This document shows, one piece after another, positions 1,896 to 64,000 of a DNA stretch of 64,000 nt. The DNA comes from Closterium sp. NIES-65 (Eukaryota; Streptophyta; Zygnematophyceae; Desmidiales; Closteriaceae): the NCBI GenBank assembly GCA_948144175.1, contig CANXME010002568.1:620001-684000 (forward strand). Reading direction: 5' to 3'. Every line of letters begins with the position of its first letter. The stretch's first letter is position 1. The notes under the pieces were generated by a model. That model had not been told where the DNA came from. It searched no databases and saw only the letters and a list, made by a program, of their open reading frames with translations. The translations under genes were made by a program, and so were the position numbers.

Positions 1896-1900
1896 CTTGT

Positions 1901-3079: not shown

Positions 3080-3169
3080 TGTGCCTAGGGCCCACCACAT
3101 CGAGTTTTGTTTTCTTGCCCGAAGCGCGCTCAGCTCGAGTCGCGCTCCGGGCTCTCACTTCGTCGAGCC

Positions 3170-3745: not shown

Positions 3746-4158
3746 CGCCCTACCAGCGGCCCTACCGCCCTACACCGCCCACGCCGCCGGAGCCGCTCGA
3801 GCCGCCCGACCCGCTCGAGACGCCCGAGCCGCCTGAGCCGCTGAGGAGCCGAGCCGCCCGAGCCGCGCGAGCCGCCCGACCCGGCCGAGCTGCCCGAGCC
3901 GCCTGAGCCGCTGAGGAGCCGAGCCGCCCGAGCCACCCGAGCCGCCCGACCCGCCCGACCCGCCCGAACAGCCCAAGCCACCTGAGGAGCCGAGCCGCTA
4001 GTGCCGCAGAGCCGCAGTTGCTGCTGAGCCGTCCGAGCAGCCGTGTTGCCGTGTTGCTGTGCTGCTGAGCTGCCCGAACCGCCCAGTCTTGTGAGAGCAG
4101 CGCTTCTGTCACTGCACTGCCCCTGCCCTACAGTTGGTACTACTAGTGTACTATTGTC

Positions 4159-25559: not shown

Positions 25560-25609
25560 GGCAGCAGCTGGAAGTCTCACCGGGCTGGGAGAGTCGGGTA
25601 GGTCAGCAG

Positions 25610-30480: not shown

Positions 30481-30834
30481 GGCCGAGCCGCCCCAGCAGC
30501 AGAGCCGCCCCAGCAGCCGAACCCCCCCCCGGGAGCCGAGCTGCCCAACGCCGAGCCGCCCGGGACCCGAGCCGCCCTGCTGCCGAGCCGCCCGGGAGCC
30601 GAGCAGCCCGGGAGCCGAGCCGCCCTGCACCCGAGCCGCCCTGCCGCCGAGCCGCCCGGTAGCCGAGCCGCCCTGCGCCGAGCCGCCCAGGAGCCGAGCC
30701 GCTGTGCACCCGAGCCGCCCGGTCGCTGAGCCGCCTTTCTGCATAGCTGCGCGACCTGCCCTGCCTGGTGAGCACAGTCCCACTGACACTGCGAGCTCTT
30801 TCCCTACTGCTTGCACTGCGTCGTTGTCGTCGTC

Positions 30835-33800: not shown

Positions 33801-36738
33801 CCTTGTGCCGGTTCCCCCCCCGGTAGACCCCCTCCCCCCTCAGGTTCCTGCCCCCTCAGGTGTGTCCCAGGTAGACGCCGTTGACCCGGTCGAGGTTACT
33901 GGTGACTCTGGTGCTGCTGCGGGTGCTGAGCCTGGGGGTGCTGACTCTGGGGGTGCTGTGCGCGGGGGTGCTGAGCCTGGGGGTGCTACTGCTGGGGGTG
34001 CTGGGCCTAAGGGTGCTACTGCGGAGGGTGCGGAGCCTGGGGGTGCTGAGCCGGGGGGTGCTGTGCCTGGAGGTGCTGGGTCTGGGGGTGCTGGGTCGGG
34101 AGCTGCTGAGCCTGGGGGTGCTGAGCTGGGAGCTGCTGAGCCTGGGGGTGCTGCGTCTAGAGCTGCTGAGCCTGGGGTTTCTCCCGCTGCTGCGTCTCGC
34201 CGGGAGCCCCTCTCTCCACAGGATCTGCGCGAGTGGTTCGCTCGCCGCTGGAAGCGTGCTGCTGAGTCTGGAGGTGCTGCTGGAGCTGGAGCTGGAGCTT
34301 CTTCGACCGTCGAGGGTGCGGGTGCTGCCGGTCCCGGAGCTGCTGGACCTGCGGGTCCTCCTGGAGCTGGAGCTGCTGAGACCGTTGGTGCTGAGCCTAC
34401 TGCTGTTGGTCCTGCCGCTGGAGGTGTGGGTGGCGCTGGTGCTGTCGCTAAGGGTGCTGGTGCTGTCCCTGCCGCGTCTGGAGCTGCCGCGCGGCCTCGG
34501 CCATACTTCGTTCCGCTCCTGCAGCAGGTTCTTGGTCTTTCTCCTCTAGTAGAGGGTCCACCGCCTGTCCAGTCGCAGCCCCTGCTGGAGCCTTCCTCTC
34601 CACTGCCTGCTCCCTCTCCTTACACTGGTCCAACTGGAGGTCTTGCTGAGCGTTGTGAGCCTGCGTCTCGTCCCGCGTCGCCTGTTCGTGCTGCTCGCGC
34701 TAGTGGTCGCAGTTCGCGTCAGCGTCCTCCTCCTGTCCCTGGCATGCACCGGATGTCTTTGCGTCCGTCCACTGCTCCTCTGCGTGCCCCTTTGCCTTCT
34801 CCTCCTGAGTCCTCTCTTCCTGCGCTTGCCGACCCTGAGTCGGACTCTCTTCGTGCTGCCAGTCCTACTGTCACGCGTCTGCTTGCTACTGTCGTCACTG
34901 ACCCCTCTTTTGAGTCCACTGCTGCGTCTGCTCTAGTCGTTGAGCTCGTCGACTTTGCTGCTCGATGTCGTCTCGACTACGCTGCTAGTCTTGTTGCTGA
35001 GTCTGCGTCTGTCTCTCTTCCGTCCGTTAGGGGTGAGTGTGCTCTTGGCACGGACGTCCTAGAGGACAGGCAGGAGGAGTGACAGTGTCTAGCGGCTGCT
35101 TCACCTCATCTCGCGTCTGTACTGCTTGCCCCTGAGGGAGACCCGGATGCACTAGACATCCCGACTCCGCGTTCTTACGCGGAGGCCGTAGAGGGTCCCT
35201 ACTCCTCTCAGTGGCAGGCAGCTATGGATGCAGAGATGGCTTCCTGGAAGTCCACAGGCACCTACGTTGACGCGGTTCCCCCTCCTGGGGCGAACATCGT
35301 AAGTGGCATGTGGATCTTCAGGGTGAAGCGGCCGCCGGGCTCTCCACCTGTCTTCAAGGCACGGTACGTTGCTCGTGGCTTCAGTCAGCGGCAGGGAGTT
35401 GACTACTTTCAGACCTTCTTTCCCACCCCGAAGATGACTATTCTTCGGGTGCTGCTGCACATAGCCGCTCAGCGCGACTACGAGCTTCACTCCCTCGACT
35501 TCAGCACTGCGTTCTTGCAGGGTAGCCTGCACGAGGAGATCTGGCTTCGCCGTCCACCTGGCTTCACTGGGACTTTCCCTCCTGGCACCCAGTGGAGCCT
35601 CCGACGGCCAGTCTACGGTCTCCGCCAGGCACCGCGTGAGTGGCACGACACACTGAGGACTACGCTTGCGGCTCTTGGGTTTGCTCCTTCTACTGCTGAC
35701 CCGTCGCTGTTTCTTCGCACCGACACTTCCCTGCCGCCGTTCTACATCCTCGTGTACGTCGACGACTTGGTCTTTGCCACAGCGGACACTGCTGGACTCG
35801 CCTACGTGAAGTCCGAGCTGCTGAAGAGACACACGTGCACAGACCTGGGTGAACTGCGCAGCTACCTTGGCTTGCAGATCACTCGGGACAGAGCACGCCG
35901 CACCATTACCTTGACTCAGTCACACATGGTGCAGCAGGTCCTTCAGCGCTTCGGCTTCACGTACTCCTCGCCTCAGGCCACTCCTCTGCCTACTCGCCAC
36001 TCACTCTCAGCTCTGCCTTCGGATGAGTCCGTAGAGTCGAGTGGTCCGTATGCAGAGCTTGTTGGCTGCCTCATGTACCTGATGACCTGCACACGACCTG
36101 ACCTTGCATACCCTCTGAGCATTCTTGCACGCTATGTTGCTCCTGGGAGACACAGACCGGAGCACATGGCTGCAGCGAAGAGGGTATTGCGCTACCTGTG
36201 CAGTACGTCGGGCATGGGGCTAGTGCTTGGAGGGCGGAGTCCAGTGGTCCTTACCGGCCACGCGGACGCTTCTTGGGCTGACGACCAGGCTACGCAGCGG
36301 TCGTCACAGGGTTACACCTTCAGCCTTGGTTCCGGCTCTGTCTCGTGGCGGTCTACTCGCTCGTCTTCGGTTCTCGGCTCCAGTTGTGAGGCTGAGATCT
36401 ACGCCGGGGCCATGGCTGCACAGGAGCTTCGCTGGCTCACCTACCTGCTGACTGACCTTGGAGAGCCGCCTCGTTCTCCTCCAGTGCTGTACGTAGACAA
36501 CAAGGCCATGCTGGCCTTGTGTCGAGAGCAGCGCTTGGAGCACAGAACGAAGCACATTGCTCTCCGCTACTTCCTTGCTCGTGAGCTGCAGCAGCGTGGT
36601 CAGTTGCGACTTGCGTACGTGGCCTCTGAGGCCAACACTGCTGATGTGTTCACCAAGGCACTCGCGCCTTGTGACCATCAGCGCTTTTGCACCCAGCTGG
36701 GTCTTGTACCTGTCTTGCCTCACTTGCTCTCCTCTTGA
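30835..36738 (+). CDS. gag-pol: copia Gag-Pol of element C, interrupted by a single TGA
   Basis: ATG at 30835 (MATPSVLDFDAEGRAIDFEV). The frame is open for 1415 codons to TGA at 35080-35082, where H has TTC, and then stays open in the same frame to TGA at 36736-36738. The first part carries Gag, the Gly-rich run (31641-31860), the Cys/His motif CGGAHATQRCF (about 32050), protease FTLDSGASRSFF, integrase HHCC and DDE motifs, and the repeat spacer. The second carries RT (YVDDLVF near 35755) and RNase H. The codon is either a disabling mutation or, less likely, a readthrough site. Confidence 0.9.
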
Positions 36739-40294: not shown

Positions 40295-43200
40295 CTGGCA
40301 TGGGAGTGAGGGAGGGTGAAGTGTTGAGTGATGAGCTCAAAGGGCAACGCGGTAGCAGCGAAAGAGTGCGCCCATAAGCGAGAGCAGCAACGTTGATGTT
40401 ACTCTTGAGAATTCTCAAACGTAGCAGCGAAAGAGTGTGCTCACAAGCGAAAGAGTGTGCTCACAAGCGAAAGAGTGTGCTCACAAGCGAAAGAGAGTGC
40501 TCACAAGCGAAAGAGCAGCAACGTGCTACTGCACGCACGCCGTCACTTCTGCCTGCTCCTTTGTACCCAGCTGTGTGAGCTTGGTGAGGGCATGACGTGG
40601 AGAGTTGTGGGATACATCACGCTGAGGTGTGCAGGTACCCTTTCCCTTGGAAGGTGCTCAGGTGCGGACGTTGACTGCTTCCATCATTGGAAGGTGCTCA
40701 GGTGCGGACGTTGACTGCTTCCATCATTGGAAGGTGCTCAGGTGCGGACCTTGACTGCTTCCATCATTGGAAGGTGCTCAAGTGCGGACGTTGACTGCTT
40801 CCATCATTGGAAGGTGCTCAGGTGTGGACGTTGACTGCTTCCATCATTGGAAGGTGCTCAGGTGTGGACGTTGACTGCTTCCATCATTGGAAGGTGCTCA
40901 GGTGTGGACGTTGACTGCTTCCATCATTGGAAGGTGCTCAGGTGTGGACGTTGACTGCTTCCATCATTGGAAGGTGCTCAGGTGTGGACGTTGACTGCTT
41001 CCATCATTGGAAGGTGCTCAGGTGTGGACGTTGACTGCTTCCATCATTGGAAGGTGCTAAGGTGTGGACGTTGACTGCTTCCATCATTGGAAGGTGCTCA
41101 GGTGTGGACGTTGACTGCTTCCATCATTGGAAGGTGCTCAGGTGTGGACGTTGACTGCTTCCATCATTGGAAGGTGCTCAGGTGTGGACGTTGACTGCTT
41201 CCATCATTGGAAGGTGCTCAGGTGTGGACGTTGACTGCTTCCATCATTGGAAGGTGCTCAGGTGTGGACGTTGACTGCTTCCATCATTGGAAGGTGCTCA
41301 GGTGTGTGACGTTGACTGCTTCCATCATTGGAAGGTGCTCAGGTGTGGACGTTGACTGCTTCCATCATTGGAAGGTGCTCAGGTGTGGACGTTGACTGCT
41401 TCCATCATTGGAAGGTGCTCAAGTGCGGACGTTGACTGCTTCCATCATTGGAAGGTGCTCAGGTGTGGTGTGGACGTTGACTGCTTCCATCATTGGAAGG
41501 TGCTCAGGTGTGGACGTTGACTGCTTCCATCATTGGAAGGTGCTCAGGTGCGGACGTTGACTGCTTCCATCATTGGAATGTGCTCAGGTGTGGACGTTGA
41601 CTGCTTCCATCATTGGAAGGTGCTCAGGTGTGGATGTTGACTGCTTCCATCATTGGAAGGTGCTAATCCTCCACGTCAGCCTCGTCCTCTTCTTGACTGC
41701 CGCTCTATTCCCTCTCCCCCACACCCAGCCCGGCACTCCCTTCTAACATCAACCACTGCCCTTGAACATCAGCATATATTCCTCACCTAGCTCCAGCTCA
41801 ACCCCGTATTCATCCTCCACGTCAGCCTCGTCCTCCTCCAGGGAGCCAATCATCTTCGCCGCCTCCGCGTATCGCCTCATCAGCGCCGCCTCCAGCTCAG
41901 CATCGTCGAGATTCTCGTCCAACGCGGGCTGGATGGCGCCAGAAAAGGGGAAATGAGAGGAGAAACGAAGCGTGCAGAGAAAAAGGGAGATGGCTGTTGA
42001 GGCGAATAAAAGAGACCTTTATTTGAAGGGGATAAGGAAGGAGTAGACGAAAGAAGTCGACCAGGAGATTGGATCCAGACAAAGAGTTTGTGAGATGCGA
42101 CGAGGGAAGACGAAGAGCACGGACGATGAAGAAACAAGTTTCAACTCTCGCAGGTGGTTTTTGAAATTTCTCAAAACCCACTTGAGAATTCTAAAAAACT
42201 ACCTGGACCTTCTCTTCCGCCTCTTCCAGAGTATTAGAACAATTTAAACCGCGGCAAGTTCTTGTTTCCCCTCCACCTCTCCTTCTCTCCTCCTCTTCCT
42301 CACCCTCCTCATTCCCTTCCATGCTGCTCCCCTCCTCCTTCACCTCCTTCAGCCGCACCATCGCTGCCATCGCTGCTGCCAGCACGGCAGCTGGCACAAC
42401 TGCAAAGCACACAGCACACATGACACCACTGCACCACTGCCCTTGCAAAATCGCTGCCATTGCTGCTACAGCTACTGCCAGCACTGCTGTTGGCAGGACT
42501 GCAAAGCACTCAGCACTCAGCTCACATGACACAACTGCACCACTGCCTTCGATCTTACCTCCTCATCGTCCTCATCCTCCTCTTCCTCGTCCTCCTCGTC
42601 CTCCTCCCCCTCCTCGCTCCCTTCCTTGCTGCTTGTCTCCTCCTTCACCTCCTTCAGCCGCACCATTGCTGCCATTGCTGCTGCCAGCACTGCTGCTGGC
42701 AGGTCTGACCCTGTCACTGCTGCTGCTGCTGCTGACTGTTGCACCAAGCACGTGAGCGCGAGCACTGTGAGAGGCAATGGGGGTCGTGGGGAGAATGAGG
42801 GTAGGGGGAGCGGAGAGAGGGGAAAGTAGGAGGAGTGTTGATGAAAATGGGGGAGAGTTAAGCTCGCCTCCTCCTTCACCTCTTTCAGTCGCACCATCGC
42901 TGCTGCCAGCACTGCAGCTGGCAGGTCTGACCCTGTCACTGCTGCTGCTGACTGCTGCACCAGGCACGTGAAGGCGAGCACTGCCACAGGGGGATAAAGG
43001 CAGAGGAGGGAAGGGAGAACTTGGAGGGAGAATTTCTAACTTGCTTCACCTCTTTCAGTCGCACCATCGCTGCTGCCAGCATGGCGGGTGGGAGGTCTGA
43101 CCCTGTCACTGCTGCTGCTGCTGACTGCTGCACGAGGCACGTGAGGGCGAGAACTGCCGTTGAAAGTGGGGAAGGGGAGGGGAGAGGGTTGGAGGAGGAC

Positions 43201-46200
43201 AGGAGAAGGCACGGGAGTGTCTCAGCTCCCCTCCTCCTTCATCTCCTTCAGCCGCACCATTGCTTCCATTGCTGCTGCCAGCACTGCGGCTGGTCCTTTT
43301 CTCTGCTGCTGTTGCTGCTGCTGCTGACTGCTGCACCAGGTACTTCAGAGCGAGAAGTGCGACGAGCAAGGGCAGCAAGGCAGTGCAGGGCAAAGGGGGT
43401 TTTGAGACATCTCAAGACTGCTGCACCAGGCACGTCAGGGCAAGAACTGTGAGGGGCGAAGGGGACATTAGATGGCAAAGGGGGAGCGGTAAGGTTGGAG
43501 GGGAGCGTTTTCAGTCGACTTACAAGTATACTCTAGTCCTGTGGCTTTCTACAGCCTCAGATCCCGGGAATTTGCCTCATACCAGTATGACCTGCTTTCC
43601 GGAACCACCCACCCACACACCCACTTGCACACCCACCCACCCACCCACCCACGCAGCCACTCACCGTCCCAGCTACCCACTCACCCACCCACTCACCCAC
43701 ACACCCACCTACTCACCCACCCATCTACTCAACCACCCACCTAGCCACCCACTCAAGCGGCCAGCCCACCCACTTGTGAGCTTGAGCTCTGACTCGAGAA
43801 CCAGCCCTGGCTCCGCATGCAGCGCCAGCAAGCTGACTTTTGAGTCGACTCAAGAGTCAACCCGCCCAGCCCATCCGTCCGCCCACCAACGTGTGAGCTT
43901 GAGCTCTGACTCACCAACCAGCCCCGGCTCCGCATGCAGCCACCCACCATCCACTCATCTACTCACCCACCCAACCAACTGTCACAACTTAGGCTTAGAA
44001 CTGATGCATTGGTAATGAGCTTGAAGCTCTTTAAGTACATCCAAGAAGGGTAGGGAATGGATGGGGAAAGGAATCGGGGGTAATCCCTAGGGATTGGGAG
44101 TAATCCCAAGGCAATCTCCAATTGGTGGGTTGGAGACTGCTTGGAGATTACATTTGGGTTTGGTTGGGATGTAGGTGTACACCCAACCAAACACAAAGTG
44201 CAAACTACACTACTCTAGGATATAGAAAATATAAAGTACAAAGTGTGAGATTGAGGGCTAACACTAACACCAACCAGCCCAGCCCATCCCACCCACCCAC
44301 CTGTGAGCTTCAGCTCTGACTCGAGAACCAACCCTGGTTCCGCATGCAGCGCCAGCAAGCTCTCTACACCGCGCACAACCACTCCCAACATCAACCCTTC
44401 TTCCTTCTCCCCTTCTCCTTCCCCTTCCTCTTGCCCCGCCTCCACCTTCCCCTTGTCGCCAGCAGGTGCGGGGGAGAGGAGGAGGGGGAAGACGGAGGAG
44501 GGGGAGGCGAGGAGGGAGGAGAAGAGGGCGAGGAGAAGAGGCTTGGTGATGTAACGGATGGAGGAGAGGGAGGGGGCGGTGGAGAGGCGAGTGAGAGAGG
44601 CCTGGAAGGGGGTTGAGAAAGGGGGAAAATGAGGGGGAGTTTTGTAAATTGCACAACATGTGGACGTGGGGCAGGGGCAAGAGGGGGAGGAGCAGAGGCT
44701 TGGTGATGTAAGGAATGGAGGAGAGGGAGGGCGTGGAGGCGAGGCGAGTGAGAGAGGCCTGAGGGAGGGGGTTGGGAAAGGGTGAAAGGGGGAAAGGCGG
44801 AACAAATGGTTAGTTGAGAGACACGTGGACAGGGGCAAGAGGGAGAGGAGGGAGGAGAAGAGGGCGAGGAGCAGAGGCTTGGTGATGTAGCGGATGGAGG
44901 AGAGGGAGGGGGCGGTGGAGAGGCGAGTGAGAGAGGCCTGAGAGAAGGGGGTGAGAATGGGGGAAAAGGGGGGAAAGGTGGAACAAATGGTTGCTTGCGA
45001 AACATGTGGACACCACACCCACCCACTCAGAGACACCACAGCCCCCCTCCCCCCCACCACACCCACCCACTCAGAGACACCACAGCCCCCCTCCCCCCCA
45101 CCACACCCACCCACTCAGAGCAGGCAGCCACAGCGCCCCCCTACCCTCTCCCATCCCATCCTCTCGGAGCAACCAAAGCGTGTCCCTACTCAACCCCCCC
45201 CGCCGCCCTCCTCCCCCATTCCCTGTCCCTTCCTCAATGCCTCACCTCGGCAAACCGTCCAGCCAGGGCAGCAGCAGCAGCAGGGGCCCCATGGAGTGGC
45301 ACAGCAGCAATGTTCAGCAGCGCGTTCTACCACATCTCTTCCACGCCCACTTCCCCACCCCTTCCTTTGCCTCACCTCGGCAAACCCCCCAGCCAGAGCA
45401 GCAGCAGCAGCAGCAGCAGCAAGCCCTCTGTTGAGAGCCACAGCAGCAGCGTTCAGCAGCGCGTTTCGAGACATTTCGACTTCCTTTCCTCCTCCCATCC
45501 CCCCCTCCTTCCCCCTCAGCCCCCCGCTCTTTCCCGTTGCCTCACCTCGGCAAACCGCGCAGCCAGAACAGCGGCAGCAGGCCCCCCCCCCCTTTGAGCG
45601 TCATGGCAGCAGCGTTCAGCAGTGTGTGTTGACATGACACACCTCAGAATCCCACTTTCCCACCCCTTCCATTTCCCGTTGCCTCACCTCGGCAAACCGA
45701 GCAGCCAGAGCAGCGGCAGCAGGCCCTCCGTTGAGCGCCACAGCAGCAGCGTTTAGGAGCGTGTGCGAGTGCCTGGATGCTCGCCACGTGGCAGCAGGAG
45801 AGCCGTCAGATAGCGCGGATGAGATGAAGCACGCGACGCCTTCGAGGATGGAGCGTGCCGGCACGGGCGGCAGGGGAGGCGGTGGAGTGGCTCTGGATAT
45901 GAAATCCGGTACTGGCGTCCTCCCCTGGAAGGCAATTGGGTTGGGAGTGTGAGGGAAATCCATTCAAGTGTGGCGTCCTCCCCTGGACGGCATCGACAGG
46001 AGGTGAGGGGGCTCCGTGGCAGGGGAGGCAGCGGAAAGGCAATGGATGTGAAATCCGGTACTGGAGTGGGCTCAAAACTCGTCCCATGTCGTAGAGAATT
46101 GGGTCTGTGTACCCAGGATAGGGACGGCGAAAAGGAGACAGCATGTGCAGGTGAGGGGGCAGGGTACGCAGGGTGAGGGGATAGCAGAGAATAGCAGCTT

Positions 46201-49200
46201 CCTCCCATGCCGAGTTGACTTTTGAGTCGACTCAAAAGTAATTTTGAGTCGACTCAAAATAGCATCTTCCTCCCATGCCCTCCACTCTACTATCAGCTCC
46301 ACCCACTTGTGCAGCAACGCCACCACCCCCCACTGCGTCACCAGCTCTCAACACACTCACCTCCCATGCACTCACTCACCTGCAGCAGCAGCACCACCTA
46401 CAGAAGTGCTCACCTGCAGCAGCAACAAGGAGTCGATGGTCTGAAACACCGCCTCGTCCTCATCCTCCTCCCATGCCGTCCACTCCGCCACCAGCTCCAC
46501 CCACTTGTGCAGCAACGGCACCACCCCCCACTGCGCCACCAGCGCTGCTGCATCCCCGCCTGTAGCAGCAGAGGTGGAGGAAGGTGAAGCTGGGGCGTTG
46601 GCAGCGGCTTTGAGGACGAAGGAGAGCAGCAGAGAGGCATCGAACCATGACGTGGGGGGCGGCTCCTTGTCCTCCTCGCCTTCTAGAGTGGCTGCTGCCT
46701 GTGGCTTCACGAGAGATGGGTCCACCTGAAGAGGTGGGGGGGGGGGGGGGGGGTGAGTGAAGAGAGGGGGGGCGGAGGGCATAGGGACCAGGGAGGCTGT
46801 AAGGACGAAGGGGAGCAGAAGAGGGGCGTCGAACCACAAGGTGGGGGGCGGCTCCTTGTCCTCCTCGCCCTCTAGGCCGGCTGCTGGCTGTGGCTTCACG
46901 AGGGACGGATCCACCTGACGAAGAAAGGCGGGTGGGGGTGGAGGGAGGGTGAGAGGGGGATCGTAGAGTACAGGGACCAGGGAGGTTTTGAGGACGAAGG
47001 AGAGCAGCAGAGAGGCGTCGATCCACGAGGTGGGGGGCGGCTCCTTGTCGTCCTTCTCGCCCTCCTGAATTGACACTTGTGGCTTCACTATGGATGGATC
47101 CACCTGACAAGAGGTGGGGGAGAGAAGGGCGGGGAAAGGAATTGGTGGTGGGGGGGGAAGTGGGGGTGGGGGGGCGGAGAGCACAGGGATTCGGGGGGGT
47201 TTGGAGGACGAAGGAGAGCAGCAAAGGGGGGTCGATTTTTGAGTCGACTAAGAAGAGAAGGAAAGGGACGCCGTTTCCTTGGGGCACTCAAGCCACAGGG
47301 GGGTCGGCTCCTTGTCCTCCTGGCGCCACTTGGGGCACTCAAAGCCACAGATGCGTTTGACTCAGAAGTTCGAGTTGACTCAGAAAGAATTCACGGGTTC
47401 ATTCAGCCAGGCAGGCAGGCAGGCCACTCGCAGCACACACGCGGGCCACACACCTACCACCTCCTAAGAGAAAGAAAGAACAGGGAAGCAAAGGGTGGTG
47501 CTCTGGGCTGCGTTGACTTTTGAGTCGACTCAAAAAGCGAAGGGTGGTGCTCTGGGCTGCGTTGACTTTTGAGTCGACTCAAAAGTCAACAGGGAAGCGA
47601 AGGGTGGTGCTCTGGGCTGCACTGCAAGAGGGCAAGAGGGCGAGTTAATAACTCACAGGTTCGTTCAGCCAGGCCACTCGCAGCACGCGAGCCACAGACG
47701 CAGCCACCTCCACTGCCCGGCGACTCCTCTCCTCCGCCCCTGCTGCCTCCTTCCCATCCCTCTCCTCCCCTTCCTCCTCCTCGTCATCGTCCCCTGGCAG
47801 GTCATCATCAGCCCATGACTCGACCAGCGAGGCGAGTGCAGAGAAGAGCGCCCACACACGCTGGGAGAGGGTGGGGTGGAAAGGAGGAAAGGGAAGGTGG
47901 ATAGAATGAACGAGCACTCTTTCTCTGGCGGGTCATCGTCGGCCCATGACTCGACGAGAGAGGCGAGCGCAGAGAAGAGCGCCCACACACGCTGTTGGGG
48001 AGAGAGGGTGGGGAAAGGAGGGCGGATCAGTCAACAACAGACATCCGTTTCCCCCCTGGAGCCTGGCAGGTCATCGTCGGCCCATGACTCGCAAGAGAGG
48101 CAAGCGCAGAGAAGAGCGCCCACACACGCTGGCATGAGGAGGGGGACGAGGAATGGAGGAGCTGAAAGGGAGGGGGGATCAGTCAAAGGACAGCTGAAAG
48201 GGAGGGGGGATCAGTCAAAGGACAGCTGAAAGGGAGGGGGGATCGGTCAAAGGACAGCTGTTCCCCCCTGGCAGCTCGTCATTGGCCCATCACTTGATCA
48301 GAGAGGCGAGCGCAGAGAAGAGCGCCCAGCCCACACACGGTGCCATGAGAAGGGAGGGCGGGTAAAGAAGGAAGGAGCAATGACAAGCACAACCCCCCTG
48401 GCAGCTCGTCATCAGCCCACGACTCGACCAGAGGGGCGAGCGCAGAGAAGAGCGCCCAGCCCACACATGGTGCCATGAGGGGAAATTGCTCCGAAGACAT
48501 CTCAAACAAGAACCTTTGAAGTGCACCTGTAATCTTTCCCTTGTGAACCGGTATTGGGTTCACCCAATGCTACAGCATGCAGGTGTGAAAATCCTAACAG
48601 CTGCTGCCTCCATACCTATGCCTGGCTGGCCCCACACACATTCCACCAACAGAACCCCCACCTGCGACCAGGGCTGGTCTGGGGGAGGAAGAGCTGCGCA
48701 GGCGTCAGCTGCGACAGCAGCGATGATTGCGGGGAGAATTTGAGTCGACTCAAAAGTCAACAGCTGCAACAGCAGCGATGCTTGTGGGGAGGTGGGCGTG
48801 CACGCCATCTCCGCCCTCACTGTGCCTCTCTCCTCCCCCACTGTGCCTCTCTCCGCCCTCACTGTGCCTCTCTCCTCCCCCACTGTGCCTCTCTCCTCCC
48901 CCACTGCGCCTCTCTCCTCCCTTACTGTGCCTCTCTCCTCCCCCGCCCTTGTGTTGGATGATCTTATGTTCATACAGCACTAATGCAGCGGGAGGGCGTG
49001 GTTTTCATACAGCGAGAACCCGCTCAGCTACTAATATTGGACTCACCCACCCAATGTACGCGCACCGTTGGGGGATGCGGGTATTCATACGTGTGCAAGC
49101 AGCACAGCCCATACCTGCGACCAGGGCTGATCTGGGGGAGGCAGAGCTGCACAGGTGTCATCTGCAACAGCGGATATGATGGCGGGCAGGTGGGCGTGCA

Positions 49201-52068
49201 CGCCCTCGCAGCCTTCCACTGCCACTGACTCCAGCAGGTCTAGCGCCCTCACTGATACTGGGTTTTCCCACTCTACACCTAGTGCTGGAACATGCAGTGC
49301 AACAGAAGGCATACCTGCGACCAGGGCTGATCCGGGGGAGGCAGAGCTGCGCAGGTGTCATTTGCAACAGCAGCAATGATGGCGGGCAGGTGGGCGTGCA
49401 CCCCCTCGCCCCCTTCCACTGCCACAGACTCCAGCAGGTCTAGCGCCCTCACCGCCTCCCTCTCCTCCCCCGCTCTTGTTGCTGCCACCACTGCTTGCAG
49501 AAACGCCAGCCAATCAGATGGCTCCACTTCATTCTGGATAGGGAGTGGGTGGAGGAATGGAAAAGGGATGCGAGATGTGGTTTGATGTGATGTGATATAT
49601 GTTACCATGGATGTACAGAGGTCATTTGACGCTGTTTTTTAGTCGGCTCATTCGATGCGCCTCAAAAGGTTTGGTAAGCACAAGTAGAGAGAAGATCAAA
49701 CTTGCATCCACTGTACCACGTGCATCCACTATACCACGTGCATCCAGTGCACCACGTGCATCCACTGTACCACGTGCATCCACTGTACCACGTGCATCCA
49801 CTGTACCACGTGCATCCAGTGCACCACGTGCATCCAGTGCAACAAGAGCACACCTGGATGAGGTAGGAGATGCAGTGCGCACAGCCGCCCATGTGTGCGG
49901 CCGCATGTGCCACGTGCAGTGAACAAAGAGCACTAAGAGCACCAAGAGCACACCTGGATGAGGTAAGAGATGCAGTGCGACGCAGCAGTGCGCACAGCCG
50001 CCCAGGACTGCCCATCCACGTCCCCTGCTGCCATGGCCTTCATGCTCGCCTCGTACACAGGGTTGTGCAGGGACTGATGGGGCGACAGATTGGGGGAGAA
50101 ATAGGGTTGGAGGTGGAATTGGAAGGCGAAAAGTGTGTGTGCTCACGCACCCATCTTTTGAGGCGCCTCAAAAGCTCACGCACCCACGTCCACGTCCCCT
50201 GCTGCCATGGCCTTCATGCTCGCCTCGTACACATTGTTGTATAGGGACTGGTGGGGCGGATGAAAGCGGGAGTGGGAGGAGAAGACGAAGGAGTGGGGAT
50301 AAGGAGGAGATAAGGAGTGAAATGTGGACAGAGTCGGAGAAACGAAGTGGGTTGGGCGAATCTGAAGGTGAATGCTGTGGATGCTTCACCAAACTACATT
50401 TTGGAGGAGGCCAGTTTTTGAGTCGAATAAAAAATCGCCTCATCACACGGAGGCGGCCAGCTGTATAGTAGTTGCAGGGAACAGCTCCATCACACATGAC
50501 TTTTGAGTCGACTCAGAATTTGACTTCTTGAGTTTTGAGTCGACTCAAAAGTCAGCTCCATCACACATGAAATGGTTGCACACGAATCTGCCAGCAGCAA
50601 GCACCTTTTTTTTTTTAGGCGCCTCAAAAGAGGATGTTTGAGGCGCCTAAAGAAAAGACGACTGTTGGGGCGCCTAAATTTTTTTGCACAACAACAGGCC
50701 CAACCAACAGCTCCATTACACTGGAAAAGGCTGTCAGCATGATGGCTGGCTAGACTGCTTTGCTTTCTGAGGCGCCTCACATGTCCTATTAATCAGCTGG
50801 TTGATCAACAGCGCCATTCACAGTGGCCTCACATAAGAAGCAGACTGGAGGCAATGGTGAGCTAGTCTACGTCTATCACTGCACACAGTGCACAGCACAC
50901 AGTGCACAGTGAAAAGTGTTCGAGTTGCCTTTGAGAGATTTTCGAAAGTGCACACTGCACAGCTGTCAGTTGCTGGTCACCTCGGGCAGGGCGGTGGAGA
51001 GCTCTCCCAGCAGCCACGTGGCAGAGGCCAACAGGACCGCGCTGACGTGGCGCTGCGAGAAGAGGGGCAGCACGTGAGCTGGCAGCAGCTGCTCCAGGTG
51101 GGCTGGCTGGCGCTCAAAGTACTGGGGGGGTGTAAAAGGGAAGGGGGAGTGGGGGGAGAGGGAGGGTGTGGGTGGGCAGATAGGAAGCAGAGGAAGGACG
51201 CAGAGGGGTAGGCAGCAGCTGTTCCAGGTGGGCCGGCTGGCGCTCTAAGTACTGTGGGGGTGGAAGGGCGGGAACAGCAGAGCAAGATAGGATGCAGAGC
51301 AAGAGGAGGAAGGGGAGGGGAAGGGGGCGAAGTGGAGATACGTGAGGGTGAGAGGGAGCAGGTTTTTCTTTGTTGAAGAAAGCATCACTGTCACTGCCAG
51401 GCTGCCAGTTGTGGCGATCCTAATGAACTAAGCTGGCAGCGCTTCTTCCACTCCAAGTGCGCCAAAGGCCGTTGGGGTCGGATTAGTTTGTGAGCAATTC
51501 GCAGAGGGACAAGAGGGGTTCAGGATGAGGGCATTCGAGGGGATTGAGGGTACTGTGCTGATGGTGATTGTGAGTGTGAGTGAATGGAATGATAGGAAGC
51601 CAGCTTATATGCCAAGGAACGCACTCTCTCCTACCCATGTATGTGCATGTGTACCATGGAACCCATCTTTCATGGAACCCATTTTTCATGGAACCCATTT
51701 TTCATGGAACCCATCTTTCATGAAACCCATCTTTCATGGAACCCATCTTTCATGGAACCCATCTTTCGTGAATGGTCGCATAGTCTATCTTTGGGCTGCC
51801 TACCTTTGGGCTGCCTAAAACATGGAACCCATCTTTTAGGTCGACTCTTGACATGGAACCCATCTTTTAGGTCGACTCTTGACATGGAACCCATCTTTTA
51901 GGTCGACTCTTGACATGGAACCCATCTTTTAGGTCGACTCTTGACATGGAACCCATCTTTTAGGTCGACTCTTGACATGGAACCCATCTTTTAGGTCGAC
52001 TCTTGACATGGAACCCATCTTTTACGACGAACGCAATTGCTAGCTACCCCGTAAGCTTGTACCCACGT

Positions 52069-52160
<92 letters not shown>

Positions 52161-55100
52161 CTCTTTCATGGCTGCATAGGCTTGCAGAACGCCGAAGTAG
52201 CTGCGATGCGCGGGTGATGGGTGATGGGTGATGGGTGATGGGCGATGGGTGATGGGCGATGGGTGATGGGATGGGGTGAAAATATTGGGGCAAACGGAGG
52301 GAATGACAAGCAGCAAAGAGAGAGGCGGTGGGAAGTGTGGGGGGGAGAGGAGGAAGGAGGAGGGAAAGAGGGGGCCATAGAAAACAGCAGAAAACGGAAA
52401 TAGCAGCTGCACTAGCAGAATTTCGGGCAGCAGACTAGTTGATGAGAGGAGGAAAGGCGGGAGAGAAGGAGAGATGGGAGGAGGGAGGGAGGGAGGGAGG
52501 GAGGGAGGGAGGGAGGGAGGGAGGGAGGGAGGGAGGGAGGGAGGGAGGGAGGGAGGGAGGGAGGGAGGGAGGGAGGGAGGGAGGGAGGGAGGGAGAGAGG
52601 GAGGGAGGGAGGGAGAGAGGGAGGGAGGGAGGGGGAGGGAGGGAGGGAGGGAGGGAAGCCGGGAGGGAGGGAAGCCAGGAGGGAGGGAAGCCGGGAGGGA
52701 GGGAGGGAAGCCGGGAGGGAGGGAGGGAAGCCGGGAGGGAGGGAGCAGGGAGCAAAGAAAGGAAAGGGAATCGAGCCTCACTGGACAACAGCAGCACTGG
52801 CAGGGTTGGCAGGAGCCTGGCCTCCCCCTGCCCCCGCCACAAACATGCCTTCCATTGGCACGGCAGCATCAGCTGGGAGAGGGAACCTGGAGAGGACGGG
52901 GCACGGCAGGGCAGGGCAGGGAGCACGTTTTCAAGGCACATCAGAAGCAGAAGTGGCAGCATTTGCACGACAGGAGCCTGCCCCACCCCTGCTCCCGCGA
53001 CAAACATGCCATTCATTGGCACAGCAGCATCTGCTGGGAAAGGGAACCTGGAGACGGCAGAAAAGGGAGCTTTATGGTGTTGTTTTATTTATCATGATAA
53101 CATCTTCATAGGCGCTTGAATTCCCCTCGAATTTGCCACAACTATGCCATGCCTTCCCGTCCACTCCACTGGCACATGGCAACATCAGCGAGAAAGAGGG
53201 AACCTGGAAAGGAGAGGGCAGGACAAAGAGCACCTGAGTGGATGCAGGAGAGGGTAGATCAAACAGGATTAGAGTAGGAGACAGAAAAATAACAGTGCCA
53301 CTCCTATTCTCCTCCTTCACTTTGTTTCAGCATGTTGGAATGCAACAGAGAAACCATAAATGCATACATACCACACATGCACGCACGCTCGCTCCCACAC
53401 ACCAGGAGAGGACTTTTGAGTCGACTCAAAAAAGCATACGTACACACATTTACGCACGCACCTGGAGAGGAACGGAAGCACCACTGTAGCTGCTGCTGCG
53501 TCAGTGTCCTTGGTAGCGGCCGGCCTTCGTTGTCTCCTTCTGCCCGCTGCTGGCGACGTGGATTTGCCAGCTGCTGCTCCTGCTGCGCCCGGCTTACCCT
53601 TGGCGGGGCTTCCCTGCTTTGTCAGAGGGGATGGGTGAGTGTGGGGGGAGTTGAGTCTGAAGAGTAAGCGTGGACGGTCTCGTCTCCACCTGCTGCTGCT
53701 CCTGCTGCGCCCGGCTTACCCTTGGCGGGGCTTCCCTGTGTTGTGCATGTGGGAGAGGAGCGAGCGACACGGATGAAACAATCACACAGAGGAAGAACGA
53801 GCAAGTGTGGGGCGAGTCGAGTTTGCGGAGGGCCGTCTATGACTCGTCCTGCCAGCTGCTGCTGTTGTTGCTGCTGCTGTTGTTGCTGCTGCTGTTGTTG
53901 CTGCTGCTGCGCCCGGCTTACCCTTGGCTGGGCTGGGCTTGCCTGCTTACCATGCACAGGAGGAGAGGCAAACGGGATGAGCGAGTGTGGGGAGAGTTGA
54001 TTTTGAAGAGGGGCGTCGCTGTCTCGCCCTGCCTTCTGCTTGAGCAGTTGAAAGCAAGGAGCCAGGAGAACCGAACGAGGAACTAGGAAGGCTTGACACA
54101 TAGGAAGGAGTGTGTTGGTAAGAAGAGGTGTGCGCATGTGGGAGGTTTAGCATGCGTGTGCATGCTCATATGATGTGTACATATGTGTGCACGCATGCAT
54201 GTATGCATGCATGAATGTGTGTATGCATGCATGTTGCATGTATGTATAGTGTAGGCATGCAGGCACGGATGGATGGATGGAAGGATGCTTCCATGCATGT
54301 ATCAGCACCATGGTGATGGTACACCACACCACACCATACCATACCACACCATACACTACCATGGACGAGGCAAAGAGCGCCAGCAGGTGAGCAACACACT
54401 GCAGCAGGTCATGTATGATGCATGACGGATGCATGTACGTGTACATGTATTTATCAGGCGCTTGGCGATGGTACACCTAACAGCACCCACACATTACCTT
54501 GGACGTGGCAATGAGCGCCAGCAGGTGAGCAGCACACTGCAGCAGGTCATGTATGATGCATGACGGATGCATGTACGTGTACATGTATTTATCAGAAGCT
54601 TGGTGACGGTACACCCAACAGCACCCACACATTACCTTGGACGTGGCGATGAGCGCCAGCAGGTGAGCAGCACACTGCCGCGGGTCATAGCTCTCCATCT
54701 CATCCATGTCATCCTGGCCACAGAACAGAATGGTAAAGAACAGGGAGAGAGAAGGAAAGATGCCACTTTCTGAGGCGCCTCAACAGCACACTGCTGTGGG
54801 TCATAGCTTTCGATCTCATCCATGTCATCCTGGCCACAAGAAAAGGTCAACCATGAGGTAGGGGGGAATGAGAGGTGTGTCAGATTCTGAGGCGCCTCAA
54901 GAATACTAGCAAACCCCTTCTCCAGCCCATCGTAGGTCAAACTGTTACAACTTAGGCTTAGAACTGATACATTAGTAATGAACTTGAAGCTCTTTAAGTA
55001 CATCCAAGAAGGGTAGGGAATGGATGGGGAAGAGAATCGGGGGCAATCCCTAGGAATTGGGGGTAATCCCAAGGCAATCTCCAATTGGTGGGTTGGAGAT

Positions 55101-58100
55101 TGCTTGGAGATTACATTTGGGTTTGGTTGGGATGTAGGTGTACACCCAACCAAACACAAAGTGCAAACTACACTACTCTAGGATATAGAAAATATAAAGT
55201 ACAAAGTGTGAGATTGAGGGCTAACACTAACACAAAACTCTCTATCTCATCAATGCCACCCTGGCAACAGAAACACAGAAAAACGTGTAGAGGGGGAAGA
55301 AAGAGAAGTGTCGGTTTCTGAGATGCTCCAAAGAAAAGGCTGCCCTGGATGATCATAGCTCTTGATCTCAACCTAATCATATTCAAGGTACAATAATCAC
55401 CGATTTTCTCAGCGCGTGAAAAATACACGAGAGCAGTAACTAGAAATAAAATTAAAATTGGGAAAACACCAACAGCCGCCACTCACTAGATCCGTGGGTA
55501 GGTTCCGTCGCACGTACTCCTCCTCGTCCTCTTCCCAGAGTTCCAAATCCTGCCGCCCAAAAAGAAGCACAGAAAGGGCGCCCCATAATCTTAGTGTCGT
55601 TGACCAGAACGAGCAAAGACTGATGAAAGCAAGTTGGAGAGGGACCCCCCCAGATGAAACAGTCAGGCAGGCAAGGCAGTAATTTGATTGAGACTATGGA
55701 GAAACCTTTGAGGCCCCTCACCACTTGTATCACTTCACGCGAATGCAATGCAACATGCAAGGAATAAGAAGTTTATTCAATACATGTGCGAGTGGAATTG
55801 TTGAGTGCACAGATACAGTTCAATCGACGTGCCTTCACCGCGATAACAAGGAGGCGCACTCATGTGGGGGTGCAAGCAGTAAGCGTTAATAAAAAAAGAG
55901 AAAGAGAATCAGGGGGGGGTGGGGGAGGGGAGGTGGGGAGGGTGCGGAGAAAAGGGGGGAAAGGGGGGGAGCGGGAGAGGGGTGCTCACCTGGGGGTGCA
56001 GGCAGAGAGCGGGGAAGATGGCGGCCTCTAGCAGGTGGGCGAACTGCGGAGCCACCACCTTCCAGCCCTGTGGGCACATAGACATGGGGGGCGTGGTGGG
56101 AGCATGGATGGGGGAATTGGGGGGATTCAGCAGGGGGGTTGCTGTTTGGGGAAGATGGCGGCCTCTAGCAGGTGGGCGAATGCGAATTGGGGAGCCACCA
56201 CCTTCCAGCCCTGCAGGCATGGGGCAAGATTGGGGAGGGAGTGGGGCACGGCACGGGCGGGGGAGCGGCAGTGGAATGAGTTTCCAGAAGAGTGAACCCT
56301 ATCAGACTGAGGCGTTGCCTCTCCAGTTGGCCTCTGCTTTTGAGTCGACTCAAAAGTTTCCAGAAGAGTGAACCCTATCAGACTGAGGCGTTGCCTCTCC
56401 AGTCCAGTTGGCCTCTGCCAGATGGGCGAATTAGGGAGCCACCGCCTTTCAGCCCTGCAGGCATAAGGGCATGGAGCGTGGGGGAAAGGGGTATGGGGTG
56501 GAAGTGGAATAAAGTCTTATTAGAGTGAACCCTATCAGACTGAGGCGTTGGCTCTCCAGTTGGCCTCTGGCAGATGGGCGAATTAGGGAGCCACCGCCTT
56601 TCAGCCCTGCAGGCATAAGGGCATGGAGCGTGGGGAAAGGGGTATGGGGTGGAAGTGGAATAAAGTCTTATTAGAGTGAACCCTATCAGACTGAGGCGTT
56701 GGCTCTCCAGTTGGCCTCTGGCAGATGGGCGAATTAGGGAGCCACCGCCTTTCAGCCCTGCAGGCATAAGGGCATGGAGCGTGGGGAAAGGGGTATGGGG
56801 TGGAAGTGGAATAAAGTCTTATTAGAGTGAACCCTATCAGACTGAGGCGTTGGCTCTCCAGTTGGCCTCTGGCAGATGGGCGAATTAGGGAGCCACCGCC
56901 TTCCAGCCATGCAAGCATGGGGGGCATGGAGCGTGCGTGGGGGGACGAGGGCGCAGGGAGGAGATGAGGGCATGAGGAGATGACTCGGGTGCACAAGAAC
57001 ACCAGTGCAGTGCGGTGCAGTGCGGCATTAGTCACTGAGCTACTTCAGTTCAAGTCGTCCTCACATGCTCGTGCAAGCAAGTCGGCACTGACAGGGGCAG
57101 GCAGAGTGAAGCACTTGAGAGAGATGGCAGTGAGTGCAATGCAAACCCCTGCTACAAGGCAATAGATTAGATTTTGCCCCCAGTAAATGCAAACACTGCC
57201 ATCTCTCAAGTAGCAAAATCAGTGATGGCAGTAGATGGCCGTGAATGCAAACTCCTGCTACAAGGCAATAAAGCAAACATGCTTGAGCACTAATTTTCCC
57301 CCCATGCATGGGCAAAACACTTTTAAGAATACCCAAAATTCAATCCAAATTGGGCATGCAAGCAAGGCAAGGAAAACACTGACTGGAGCGGAGTCGAGCA
57401 CTTGAGAACCGGCAGAGCGTGAACGCCACTGCAATAACACGACGGGTTTCGACTCACCTCAAAAGCTTTGCGGTGCCTGCCTTTGAAGGACTCACCGGAG
57501 CGGAGTCGAGCACTTGAGAGATGGCGGTGAACGCCACTGCGATCACACGACGCGCTGCTAATGGGAGCTGGCGGGAGGGAGAGGGATGAACAGGGTGGCG
57601 GAGGAGACGGGGGGGGAAAGGAGGAGTGGATGACGGGGGGAGAAGAAGGTGGAGGAAGGAGGAAGGGGGGGGGGGGGGGGCAGGGAAAGGGCGGGTGGGG
57701 AGAAGAGGTTGGGGTTAAACGAGGGGCGGGTAAATCGAGGGGGGAAGAAGGGGTAGGGAATAACTGACAAACACGTGATTGAAGAAGGGTTTTGAGACGT
57801 CTCAAAACCCTTCTTCAATGAAGGGGTAGGGAATAACTGACAATCAAGGTGAAGCAGTTGTGTTAGATTGGACCATCAACAGATCAGCAACAACACACTA
57901 GAGTGGATAGCAGCAACAGCAACCAGCCCCATGTGGCACAGAAAGGAAGCCCCTGCCACGTGTCTGCACCTTATTGGTCCACAGTGAGTTGCAGACGATG
58001 CCTGTGATGCCGTCCACCATGGCAGGAAAGTGCCTGGAAGGCGCACACGGTGGGTGGGACAGGCAACGGGAGGGGAAAAGGAAAGGGACGGGAAGATGGA

Positions 58101-61100
58101 GAGGGAATGGAGCAGGGTCTGTTTTTTTTAGAATTCTAAAAAAAAAAAATTGAGAATTCTCAAAAAACAGAAGGGGGTCCAAAGAGCCGAGGAGGTGCGG
58201 TAGTGGGGAGGGGAGGAAAGAGTGACCTGCAGAAGGGAACCAAGCAGAGAACATTACTGAGGTGCATGTGAATGTGAACATACTTTCATTTAAAGAGGCA
58301 CTTGATTCAAGCATGCCTGCCTTTCACCAGTGCGAGCAAGGCGTTACTCACTCGTTCATCAGCAGCTTCTGGTGTCGGCTGGCCAGCCAGAGCATGGCAG
58401 GCCTGCTGATATTTGAGTCGACTCAAAAGGCGTTACTCACTCACTCGTTCATCAGCAGCTTCAGGGGGTGTCGGCCAGCCAGAGCATGGCAGGCCTGCAG
58501 CACCCACTTGCATCCCATTTGCATCTGTGGATTACCATTGCTTGCATGTTAGCCCTCTAAAACACCACTAGCTCAGCCACCCATTATCTCTGATGGTTCC
58601 TTTGACGTATCCATATCAATGCAATGACCGCTTGAGATACAAGCTAACACTGAAAACCAAGTCACTCACTTGTTGGTCAGCTTCTGGTGGCGGCTGGCCA
58701 GAGCATGGCTGATCTGCAGCGCTCACTTGCACCCCTTCAGCCGCACCTCCCACATGAGAATCCTTGCATTTGTGAGACGAGACACGAGTTACCAAGTAAC
58801 ACTGGAAGCAGAGAGCCACTCACTTGTTGGTCAGCTTCTGGTGGCGGCTGGCCAGTGACGACACACGAGTTACGGAGTAACACTAGAGGCAAGCACTGGC
58901 ACTCACTTGTTTGTCAGCTTCTGGTGCCGGCTGGCCAGAGCATGGCAGATCTGCAGCGCTCGCTTGCACCCCTTCAGCCGCACCTCCCACACTGCTGCTG
59001 CACCTCCCCCCTCTGCCCCCCCTTCCCCATCCATCACTTCCCCCTCCTCCTGCCCTGCTGCTGCTACCGCTGCTGCGAGGGTGGGCGGGCAGTGTGAGAG
59101 CAGCAGCAGCAGCTCTGGGACAATGCTGTCTATGTGCTTGCGGATGGCTGATGGCATGTGGCTCTGAACCTGTGGCACGAAGATAAGAGCAAGGGGAGAT
59201 TCAGCATGAGAGCAGCGGCAGCAGCAGCAGCAGCAGCAGCTCTGGAACAATACTGTCGATGTGCTTGCAGATGGCATGTGGCTCTGAACCTGTGGGGGAG
59301 GGGGCAAACCAGGGTGTTAGACGGCGTTGGATTGGATGGGCTAACGAGAGAGATGAACATTGCAACTTTGCAGGACAGCATTGGGGTTTGAGAATTCTCA
59401 AAAACCAGAGAATTCTCAAAAACCAGAGAATTCTCAAAAACCCGATGGCATGTGGCTCTGAACCTGAGGGGGAGGGGGCAAACCAAGGTGTTAGACGGCG
59501 TTGGATGGGCAAACGAGAGAGAAGAACAGAACGTTGCAACTTTGCAGGACAGCGTTGGGGTTTGAGCTGCTGCAAAGCGAAGTGAACGGTAGCTCAACCC
59601 CATCGGTAGCTCAACCCCATCGGTAGCTCAACCCCATCGGTAGCTCAACCCCATCATTAAAAGATGCAGAGGCGATTTGAAGCGCCTCAAGGAGACAGCT
59701 GAAGGGTTCATAGACTGAACGATGGAGGTGCATGCAGGCAGACAGGTAGGCATGTATGTGCACTCACAGAGAGGCGCACTCACAGAGAGGCGCACTCACA
59801 GAGAGGCGCACTCACAGCTAAGTGGAGAAAGACGCACGCGTCCTGCTGCGTCCTGCGTCTGGACGCAGCGTCCAGACGCAGAGACGCAGGACACACCCCG
59901 TTTTTTTTCGGGCTGACCGGAAAAATAAATCTGCCTCAGCGCGAAATTGACTTTAACGATTTCGACGCGACTGTCAATTTCACGTCATGTCGAACCCCCC
60001 TAACCCATTTCGACCATCAAAAACACCCTACAGGGTTTACCAAGACAATTCTCCTTCGTAAACCCTAAACCCTGGAAATTTGAAGGGGACGATTTTGCCT
60101 CAAATGTGTGCATAGTCGTGCCCCTCCCCCTTCCCATACCCTATAACATCATTTTTCGCCTGCCCGGGGGTTTTTTTTGCCCTGCCCGGGCATGCGTCTT
60201 TTCATGCGTCCTAAAGGCCCTCCTCTAGCGTCCTGCGTATAAGACGCTGCGTCTGGACGCAAGCGTCCTAGACGCAGGACGCGTCTTTCTCCACTTAGAC
60301 TCACAGAGAGGCGCACTCACAGAGAAGTGCACTCACAGAGAAGTGCACTCACTGAGAAGTGCACTCACAGAGAAGTGCACTCACAGAGAAGTGCACTCAC
60401 TGAGAAGTGCACTCACTGAGAAGTGCACTCACAGAGAAGTGCACTCACTGAGAAGTGCACTCACAGAGAAGTGCACTCACTGAGAAGTGCACTCACAGAG
60501 AAGTGCACTCACTGAGAAGTGCACTCACAGAGAAGTGCACTCACAGAGAAGTGCACTCACTGAGAAGTGCACTCACTGAGAAGTGCACTCACTGAGAAGT
60601 GCACTCACTGAGAAGTGCACTCACAGAGAAGTGCACTCACAGAGAAGTGCACTCACAGAGAAGTGCACTCACATAGAGATGCACTCACAGAGAGGTGGAG
60701 AGTCTTGAGAATAAGCAGCAGCGCTTCATCATGCGCAGATGGTGCTCGGGGGCTTGACTGTTGTGCCTGTGGAGTGGGTACAGGGCGAGGGGAGGGAGGG
60801 GCATGCAGGCGAGACACAAAGAGGATGGATTCGAGGAGAGGCATGAGACAGCAACAGGTCGAAGGAGGCAGATGGTTCGAGCATGATCATGCCATGCGAT
60901 GTGATGTGATGCCATGCCATGCCATGCCATGCCATGCCATGCCATGCCATGCCACGCCATGCCATGCCATGCCATGCCATGCCACGCCATGCCATGCTAC
61001 GCCATGCCATGCCATGCCATGCCATGCCATGCCATGCCATGCTCCATGCGTATCGCACACATCACCTTGTCCAGCAGTCAAACACGCCTGCGCCGCAATG

Positions 61101-64000: not shown

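Follow-up and report, generated by a model that had tools for sequence, protein, structure and literature searches.

Mobile palindromes in a Closterium nuclear genome: insertion with long, variable-length target duplications

Results

An importin gene carrying palindromes with self-complementary cores

The window analyzed here is a stretch of 64,000 nucleotides, corresponding to C2270:620001-684000 in a Closterium assembly of 874,075,685 bp and 2400 contigs. One of its proteins, whose relatives carry Pfam PF05050, shares 97% identity over 53% of its length with a protein of Closterium sp. NIES-54 and 84% identity over 91% of the length with a protein of NIES-68. The palindrome-bearing gene lies on the minus strand and encodes an importin; as best relatives it has CLOM_g21398 of NIES-68 and a Closterium sp. 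Yama58-4 protein, and weak tblastn hits point to the importin-7/8 type. One importin exon searched against solved structures matched unrelated proteins. Satellite arrays are abundant in the importin region and partial exon copies sit in many of the introns, such as the exon start (a 15-residue stretch) found before position 54768; a 17-residue segment present once in the NIES-68 protein has its like eight times in the Yama58-4 gene model.

Perfect copies of TTTTGAG-N4-CTCAAAA occur nine times in the window, all within 46220-57790. When up to three arm mismatches were allowed, 37 sites were found, all within 40403-62245, and the first 40.4 kb of the window held none. An earlier note on this DNA had placed about 30 sites with a TCGA, GCGC, ACGT or AATT core in the importin gene; of these 37 near-matches, 30 have a self-complementary core. 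None of the 24 sites with up to three mismatches between 46375 and 63786 overlaps an exon, the exons being mapped from the NIES-68 orthologue by our own choice among the best tblastn hits; exons occupy 17% of that interval, and the chance of finding no overlap is about 0.007.

Across the 874 Mb of the genome the motif was found at 30,327 places, compared to 4 for the reversed pattern, and its TCGA-core form at 13,080 compared to 0. The sequence examined holds 60 perfect sites, of which 56 carry one of four self-complementary cores (TCGA 29, ACGT 14, GCGC 11, AATT 2); in the remaining four the core is one change away from one of these, so that only four self-complementary cores and their single-change forms are present. 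The statement of the earlier note that symmetry and not sequence is conserved holds for the core, which stays symmetric while its bases vary, but not for the arms: because TTTTGAG is fixed, symmetry is not the sole conserved feature.

Chance accounts for neither the number of palindromes nor their cores, and a chance origin was rejected on the excess over the reversed pattern, the core bias and the circular-shift tests given below. A hairpin with a loop was discarded as well, given that the center of those 56 of 60 perfect sites is a self-complementary tetramer without loop. The palindromes are nuclear, lying in introns of the importin gene and reaching 30,327 copies in 874 Mb. As far as it was looked for, a viral source was also rejected: among the matches listed in viral contigs (at least 120, one per contig), cores are ordinary, with self-complementary ones in 2 of 120 where 7.5 are expected, and TTTTGAGTCGACTCAAAA gave no matches in viral contigs.

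Direct duplications enclose the palindromes

The main sites and their duplications are given below in window coordinates, without strand; C1671 is a contig carrying a second copy of the importin gene.

43328..43484, worn duplication (72 and 67 bp) directly adjoining palindrome 43400
46192..46279, 20-22-bp duplication enclosing two tandem TCGA palindromes (46220, 46242), also present in C1671
47479..47620, 31-33-bp unit present three times, separated by TCGA palindromes at 47518 and 47567
47561-47590, 30-bp palindrome GTTGAC...GTCAAC, of which palindrome 47567 is part
48706..48791, 31-bp duplication enclosing palindrome 48738
50141..50153, left copy of the 13-bp target duplication GCTCACGCACCCA, single in C1671
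50154..50173, element consisting of TC and an 18-bp palindrome, core GCGC, absent from C1671
50174..50186, right copy of the 13-bp duplication, from the C1671 comparison
50482..50570, CAGCTCCATCACACATGA, a block with two TCGA palindromes (50501, 50533), and CAGCTCCATCACACATGA again; palindromes also in C1671
51409..51459, empty target of 51 bp, single in the window; in C1671 its two copies enclose a 26-bp TCGA-core element
53362..53471, worn duplication (51 and 38 bp) enclosing the perfect palindrome 53414
54670..54838, importin exon start duplicated (53 bp), with GCGC palindrome 54768 before the second copy; a further palindrome at 54885
56279..56403, 48-49-bp duplication enclosing palindrome 56338
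57747..57770, left copy of the 24-bp target duplication GAAGGGGTAGGGAATAACTGACAA, single in the C1671 homologue
57771..57819, 49-bp palindromic element, core ACGT, left arm (A)CACGTG-ATTGAAGAAGGG and a right arm shortened to 12 nt, absent from C1671
57820..57843, right copy of the 24-bp target duplication, from the C1671 comparison
58346..58498, duplication of about 60 bp enclosing palindrome 58411
59270..59559, 116-bp duplication enclosing the AATT palindrome block (59386-59442), which is one 18-bp unit shorter in C1671
61940..62077, 42-bp duplication enclosing a 46-bp palindrome (61993-62038), core ACGT, arms TGATTGAAGAAATG

All 13 sites that the earlier note had named as separating the two copies of a direct duplication do so, those at 43400 and 53414 with worn copies and that at 54768 with an extra 45 bp separating the left copy from the palindrome. 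The spacers of duplications hold 14 of 30 window sites, compared to a mean of 2.2 and a maximum of 8 in 2000 circular shifts, none of which reaches 14; at three stricter thresholds the spacers hold 13, 13 and 9 of the 30, values that no shift of 2000 reaches either. Of the sites in the window region with at most one mismatch, 12 of 17 lie inside a duplication spacer. When 200 kb from contigs C6, C9 and C10 were added, selected for holding sites and hence uninformative on density, 53 of 94 sites were in spacers (mean 6.0 and maximum 17 in 500 shifts). The expectation that duplications flank the palindromes more often than controls was thus borne out. A cruder anchored, ungapped test was obscured by the many satellite arrays of the region and did not tell sites from random positions, scoring 12 of 30 sites and 56-62 of 200 random positions at low thresholds, and 3 of 30 and 39 of 200 at the highest.

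By gapped alignment, 70 of 94 palindromes have a nearby duplication according to a criterion of our own, applied without a random control, and at least five of the other 24 have one otherwise (50156, 50501, 50533, 59386 and one on C10). Duplication length ranges from 13 to 175 bp with a median of 40 (n = 90 sites with a detected duplication, tandem arrays included and without a random control), and in 32 of the 90 the copies are at least 98% identical. No base preference was resolved at the two nick positions, where arrays blur the signal. The sample comes from one genome and is biased to dense regions.

In the sequence examined, 97 of 147 spaced duplications have no recognizable palindrome, which leaves room for a general process of duplication in which the palindromes only take part; other palindromes of at least 8 bp were found in 7 of these 97 motif-free spacers, compared to 18 of 97 controls. 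The palindrome-free duplications fit plain repair scars, in which staggered breaks are filled into tandem duplications and the palindrome is local filler, as does the fact that small tandem duplications are known at overhang breaks (PMC8355091). On the other hand, the same arms recur 30,327 times against 4, and so are not local filler, and CACGTG stands at exactly 12 nt from the arm (CACGTG-N12-TTTTGAGACGTCTCA, 1040 places genome-wide compared to 0 reversed). Such sequence-specific arms refute repair scars as a full account and leave them a very slight chance.

Filled and empty sites in two copies of the gene

The copy of the importin gene on C1671, an allele or a paralogue, was found by a DNA search with window positions 57500-58100, in which the best 40 of 240 candidates were scored, so that further gene copies may exist. 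Outside gaps, the identity between the window and C1671 is 99.4% (45881-51459), 99.9% (51913-57227), 99.3% (57240-60280) and 99.1% (60989-62360). At site 57790 the window is longer by 73 bp, consisting of a 24-bp flank copy and a 49-bp element, and at site 50156 by 33 bp, consisting of 13-14 bp of flank and 19-20 bp of element. Conversely, at window 51409-51459 it is C1671 that is longer, by 77 bp, made up of a second copy of the 51-bp flank, mismatched at two positions, together with a 26-bp TCGA element. All three differences in the presence of a palindrome, two filled in the window and one in C1671, consist of the palindrome plus one flank copy. Over window 45881-64000, sites with at most one mismatch number 16 in the window and 15 in C1671, with 14 common to both.

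As all three pairs differ in this way, they are read as insertions of recent date whose target duplications are long and vary in length. Palindrome and duplication thus appeared jointly, not long ago, and in both gene copies. We regard insertion with target duplication as practically certain, and these three empty sites, which lack the palindrome and one repeat copy, support the first reading of the earlier note, a fold-back element with long target duplications. In the AATT block (59386-59442), C1671 has one 18-bp palindrome unit fewer with the flank copies unchanged, indicating that tandem units also change by ordinary slippage. The window and C1671 also differ in array lengths, by a loss of 155 bp near 50234-50395, by the gain of a 516-bp exon copy and by a 3.4-kb insert. 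Widespread copy-number variation is described in the C. psl. complex (PMC10407611).

Anatomy of the elements

The 18-bp motif is the center of longer palindromes, the whole element measuring about 18-60 bp. Elements with an ACGT core read AGC-CACGTG-N12-TTTTGAGAC followed by its complement; in this family CACGTG lies exactly 12 nt before TTTTGAG, and the consensus extends three bases outward, with A, G and C present in 24, 23 and 30 of 49 rows; further out it drops to near background. Some of the 49 rows stem from array units or from both strands of a single element. TCGA elements have arms such as AGGTGAC or GTTGAC. On either side the arms stop at points that differ between elements, reaching 0 to at least 18 nt beyond TTTTGAG, and there the duplication starts. 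In many ACGT elements one arm extends in full to CACGTG while the other is shortened to 0-18 nt; the set was picked by its CACGTG end, which makes the full left arm partly a selection effect. TCGA and GCGC elements often have two short arms.

The N12 stretch takes 35 variants among 45 ACGT elements. On average, 8.0 of 12 positions in the right arm agree with the complement of the element's own N12, compared to 4.6 for other N12, a value reached in none of 2000 permutations (a few of the 45 elements were counted from both strands). The match extends to at least 9 positions in 23 of the 45, and in 15 of these 23 no other of the 35 variants does as well as the own N12. As N12 tends to be mirrored within an element and yet differs between elements, one arm seems to be rebuilt from the other whenever an element inserts.

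Such diversity also bears on an assembly or library artefact, for instance a linker sequence. In favor of it, the cores form six-base palindromes with their neighbors, which double as restriction sites; however, the copies range from identical to worn, N12 is diversified and sites are common to two gene copies, and we consider the chance of an artefact negligible.

Half-sites without a partner are near background in the sample examined. Out of 218 TTTTGAG words, 173 have a partner and 45 have none, several of the latter being worn sites or array units, compared to 25-42 for five control words (a sixth, TTTGAGT, was excluded because it lies inside the element). CACGTG-N12-TTTTGAG was found at 1598 places genome-wide and its reverse at 6. 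From 32 listed places without the standard center, 13 were left out (array or duplicate copies, and six with unusual N12); in the 18 loci picked, the second half was present by eye in 18 of 18, 13 of them plain and five with an irregular center, and one of the six left-out places with unusual N12, in locus L125, is a bare half. Simple one-sided (5') truncation was rejected on these half-site and second-half counts, the bare half in L125 being the exception.

Some elements are compound. A TCGA element in locus L184 harbors a full 54-bp ACGT element that comes with a 16-18-bp duplication. Blocks between flank copies in which a half-element is directly repeated, the series closing with one palindrome, were seen by eye at C6 96120-96520, L177, C9a 4960-5180 and C9c 21900-22160; later tandem expansion would look alike. 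At the left joints outside arrays, CACGTG is supplied by the target itself in 4 of 21, one of which (L170) may be an older arm, and this favors priming by annealing. Microhomology at the joint of the truncated arm was not significant in the 12 usable joints of 21, two of them array units (mean 1.08 compared to 0.76, with 664 of 5000 shuffles reaching it).

A model for insertion

Our preferred reading, to which we give a rough probability of 0.55, is that these are nuclear mobile palindromes, formed at a staggered break by copying of a template half their length. One nick in each strand would produce the break, and the putative template (in one family AGCCACGTG-N12-TTTTGAGAC, about 30 nt) would be copied onto the broken end or ends. 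The copies would then meet in the middle of the element through the self-complementary tetramer (TCGA, ACGT, GCGC or AATT), and gap filling would yield both the palindrome and the duplication. Fresh synthesis of the second arm at every insertion would account for the mirrored variable bases, for arms ending at differing outer points and for the constant center; the meeting of two copies at the tetramer suggests why it has to be self-complementary. That one arm is rebuilt by templated copying seems probable to us. The hairpin-templated repair that the earlier note had offered as a second reading may describe how insertion happens, since the variable bases of one arm tend to recur mirrored in the other.

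In the version of the model that we prefer, the template would be RNA and a putative enzyme acting in trans would carry out target-primed reverse transcription of the approximately 30-nt RNA from both 3' ends; the RNA might be 17-30 nt long, ending in CACGUGGCU or starting with the tetramer. We hold this combination of RNA template and twin priming tentatively, the odds being clearly against it.

Two other routes start from the same anatomy. In the first, a ready-made double-stranded palindromic fragment of 30-60 bp would be captured by end joining at staggered breaks, its ends nibbled and the overhangs filled. Capture accounts for mirrored arms, a constant center, the shortening of both ends and duplications whatever their length, and also for the tandem blocks of two palindromes between one pair of repeats (46220/46242 and 50501/50533). 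However, it requires a pool of fragments with as many N12 variants as the 35 counted, and the irregular centers of loci L169 and L176 read by eye as copies of arm or flank, which looks like synthesis and not ligation. We consider capture unlikely. In the second, one arm would be copied or inserted and its 3' end would snap back, copy itself outward to a variable extent and join the other side of the break. The mirrored N12, the ACGT elements with one complete and one shortened arm (within the CACGTG-picked set) and the fold-back-like copy read by eye in the center of L169 all agree with snap-back, whereas a center without loop should be hard for a single strand to fold, and the two short arms of many TCGA and GCGC elements also argue against it; we think it about as unlikely as capture.

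Comparison with known mobile elements

Miniature inverted-repeat transposable elements (MITEs) and fold-back DNA transposons resemble the palindromes in being non-autonomous, symmetric and present in many copies with target duplications. Both have duplications of fixed length and fixed ends, and known transposases make target duplications of constant length. The palindromes have neither: the duplications measure 24, 13-14 and 51 bp at the three empty sites, and the arms end at varying distances beyond TTTTGAG on either side. A miniature inverted-repeat or fold-back transposon moved by an ordinary transposase would explain the symmetric sequence, the tens of thousands of copies and the target duplications, but not the 13-175-bp range of the latter or the ends that are not fixed, and its odds are slim. 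SINEs and LINEs, inserted by target-primed reverse transcription, share the target duplication of variable length; their one-ended, 5'-truncated fragments have little counterpart here, where half-sites are near background.

Tiny palindromic mobile sequences have been described as GC clusters in yeast mitochondria and hairpin elements in sponge mitochondria; GC42 is organellar, 42 nt long, with looped hairpins and flanking direct repeats of 2-3 bases (AG, ACT) (PMC4478555, PMC2800124). In contrast, the palindromes described here lie in introns of a nuclear gene, are loop-free, have duplications of 13-175 bp and exceed 30,000 copies. L1 twin priming, a form of target-primed reverse transcription, yields copies that are truncated, inverted and bordered by target duplications (PMC2837659); there a long element is truncated and inverted by accident, whereas loop-free palindromes of at most about 60 bp are found here. 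Introners are small and numerous in genes, including algal ones, and some families have inverted repeats and target duplications; they create introns, and their target duplications, where present, measure 3-9 bp (PMC9860276), compared to at least 13 bp here. The palindromes of the importin gene sit inside its introns. Fill-in at overhang breaks by CST/Pol alpha-primase leads to direct tandem duplication (PMC8355091). The direct duplication is common to both, the break being postulated in our case; the family-specific insert is found here, and none is described for the joints in the abstract of that article.

Each known system that was testable fails at least one defining feature. Judged by titles and the openings of abstracts, the open-access literature on Closterium or Zygnematophyceae palindromes, on palindromic elements with variable target duplications and on palindromes in green-algal intron gain describes no such element, and the palindrome sequence itself was not found in the open-access literature. 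The main text of PMC10407611, on genomes of the C. psl. complex, contains no word starting with "palindrom". Within those same titles and abstract openings, the statement that no element had been described this way stands, there being no match to a described mobile-DNA family.

Implications

Mobile DNA is classed by its ends, target duplication and enzymes, and the ends and duplications found here fit no class that was testable. A unit of a few dozen bases has been able to reach tens of thousands of copies in the nuclear genome of an alga related to land plants. Its insertions are a source of direct duplications that include exon edges and splice sites, from which new introns and exons could be built.

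A bolder reading, which we put somewhat short of an even chance, is that of a parasitic replicator whose heritable unit would be a half-sequence of about 17-30 nt, written onto both ends of a staggered break and rebuilt there as a palindrome, with more than 30,000 copies, many mirrored variants and recent activity, duplicating splice sites and exon edges in passing. If this holds, few mobile units known from nuclear genomes would be as small, and its mode of insertion would, to our knowledge, be unlike that of any described superfamily.

The existence of sister strains of Closterium makes the system testable through comparison of filled and empty sites. Within the present assembly, the paralogous gene on C6 was too diverged to yield an empty site. 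Elsewhere on C6, one locus has two copies of 99% identity that match over their full length, palindrome included.

Copies of the importin gene and the retroelement-like part of the window

The importin gene of the window and its second copy, about 99% identical and carried by contig C1671, differ in length at several points. At the point matching window position 57227, the C1671 copy contains about 3.4 kb that are missing from the window, and at window position 61406 it is longer by 516 bp. This 516-bp surplus is composed of additional tandem copies of an exon piece with CCATG repeats, and the number of exon copies thus differs between the two copies of the gene. A predicted importin of Closterium sp. 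Yama58-4 (P0012) carries one exon segment eight times in tandem, copies that are possibly pseudo-exons absorbed into the gene model.

Several long reading frames, which resemble Copia-type retroelements, lie at window positions 229-8228, 19569-25832, and 30787-36738; scanning of the window for the palindrome motif revealed no sites within its first 40.4 kb.

Arrays, irregular elements and a second hairpin

Two neighbouring arrays were found in the window, one of 16-bp units devoid of a palindrome-like insert (51655-51767) and one of 31-bp units, each harboring a worn insert of this kind (51820-52024). On C6, another contig of the assembly, the half-site GACTTTTGAGGCACTTTTGC forms about eight direct 20-bp repeats ending in GGCGCC (locus L134, positions 97343-97500 of the fetched stretch). 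Also on C6, at locus L131 (64090-64320 of the fetched stretch), a 41-bp flank occurs three times, with a GCGC palindrome in one gap and an ACGT palindrome in the other. This arrangement would fit two distinct elements having used nearly identical nick positions.

Irregular centres were observed in elements L169, L172, L176, L179, and L180. That of L176 includes part of the right flank, in reverse, fused to the left flank, which hints at template switching. Finally, a 52-bp hairpin unrelated to the palindrome element, GTAATCCCAAGGCAATCTCC...GGAGATTAC, is present in two near-identical copies at window positions 44100-44151 and 55063-55114.
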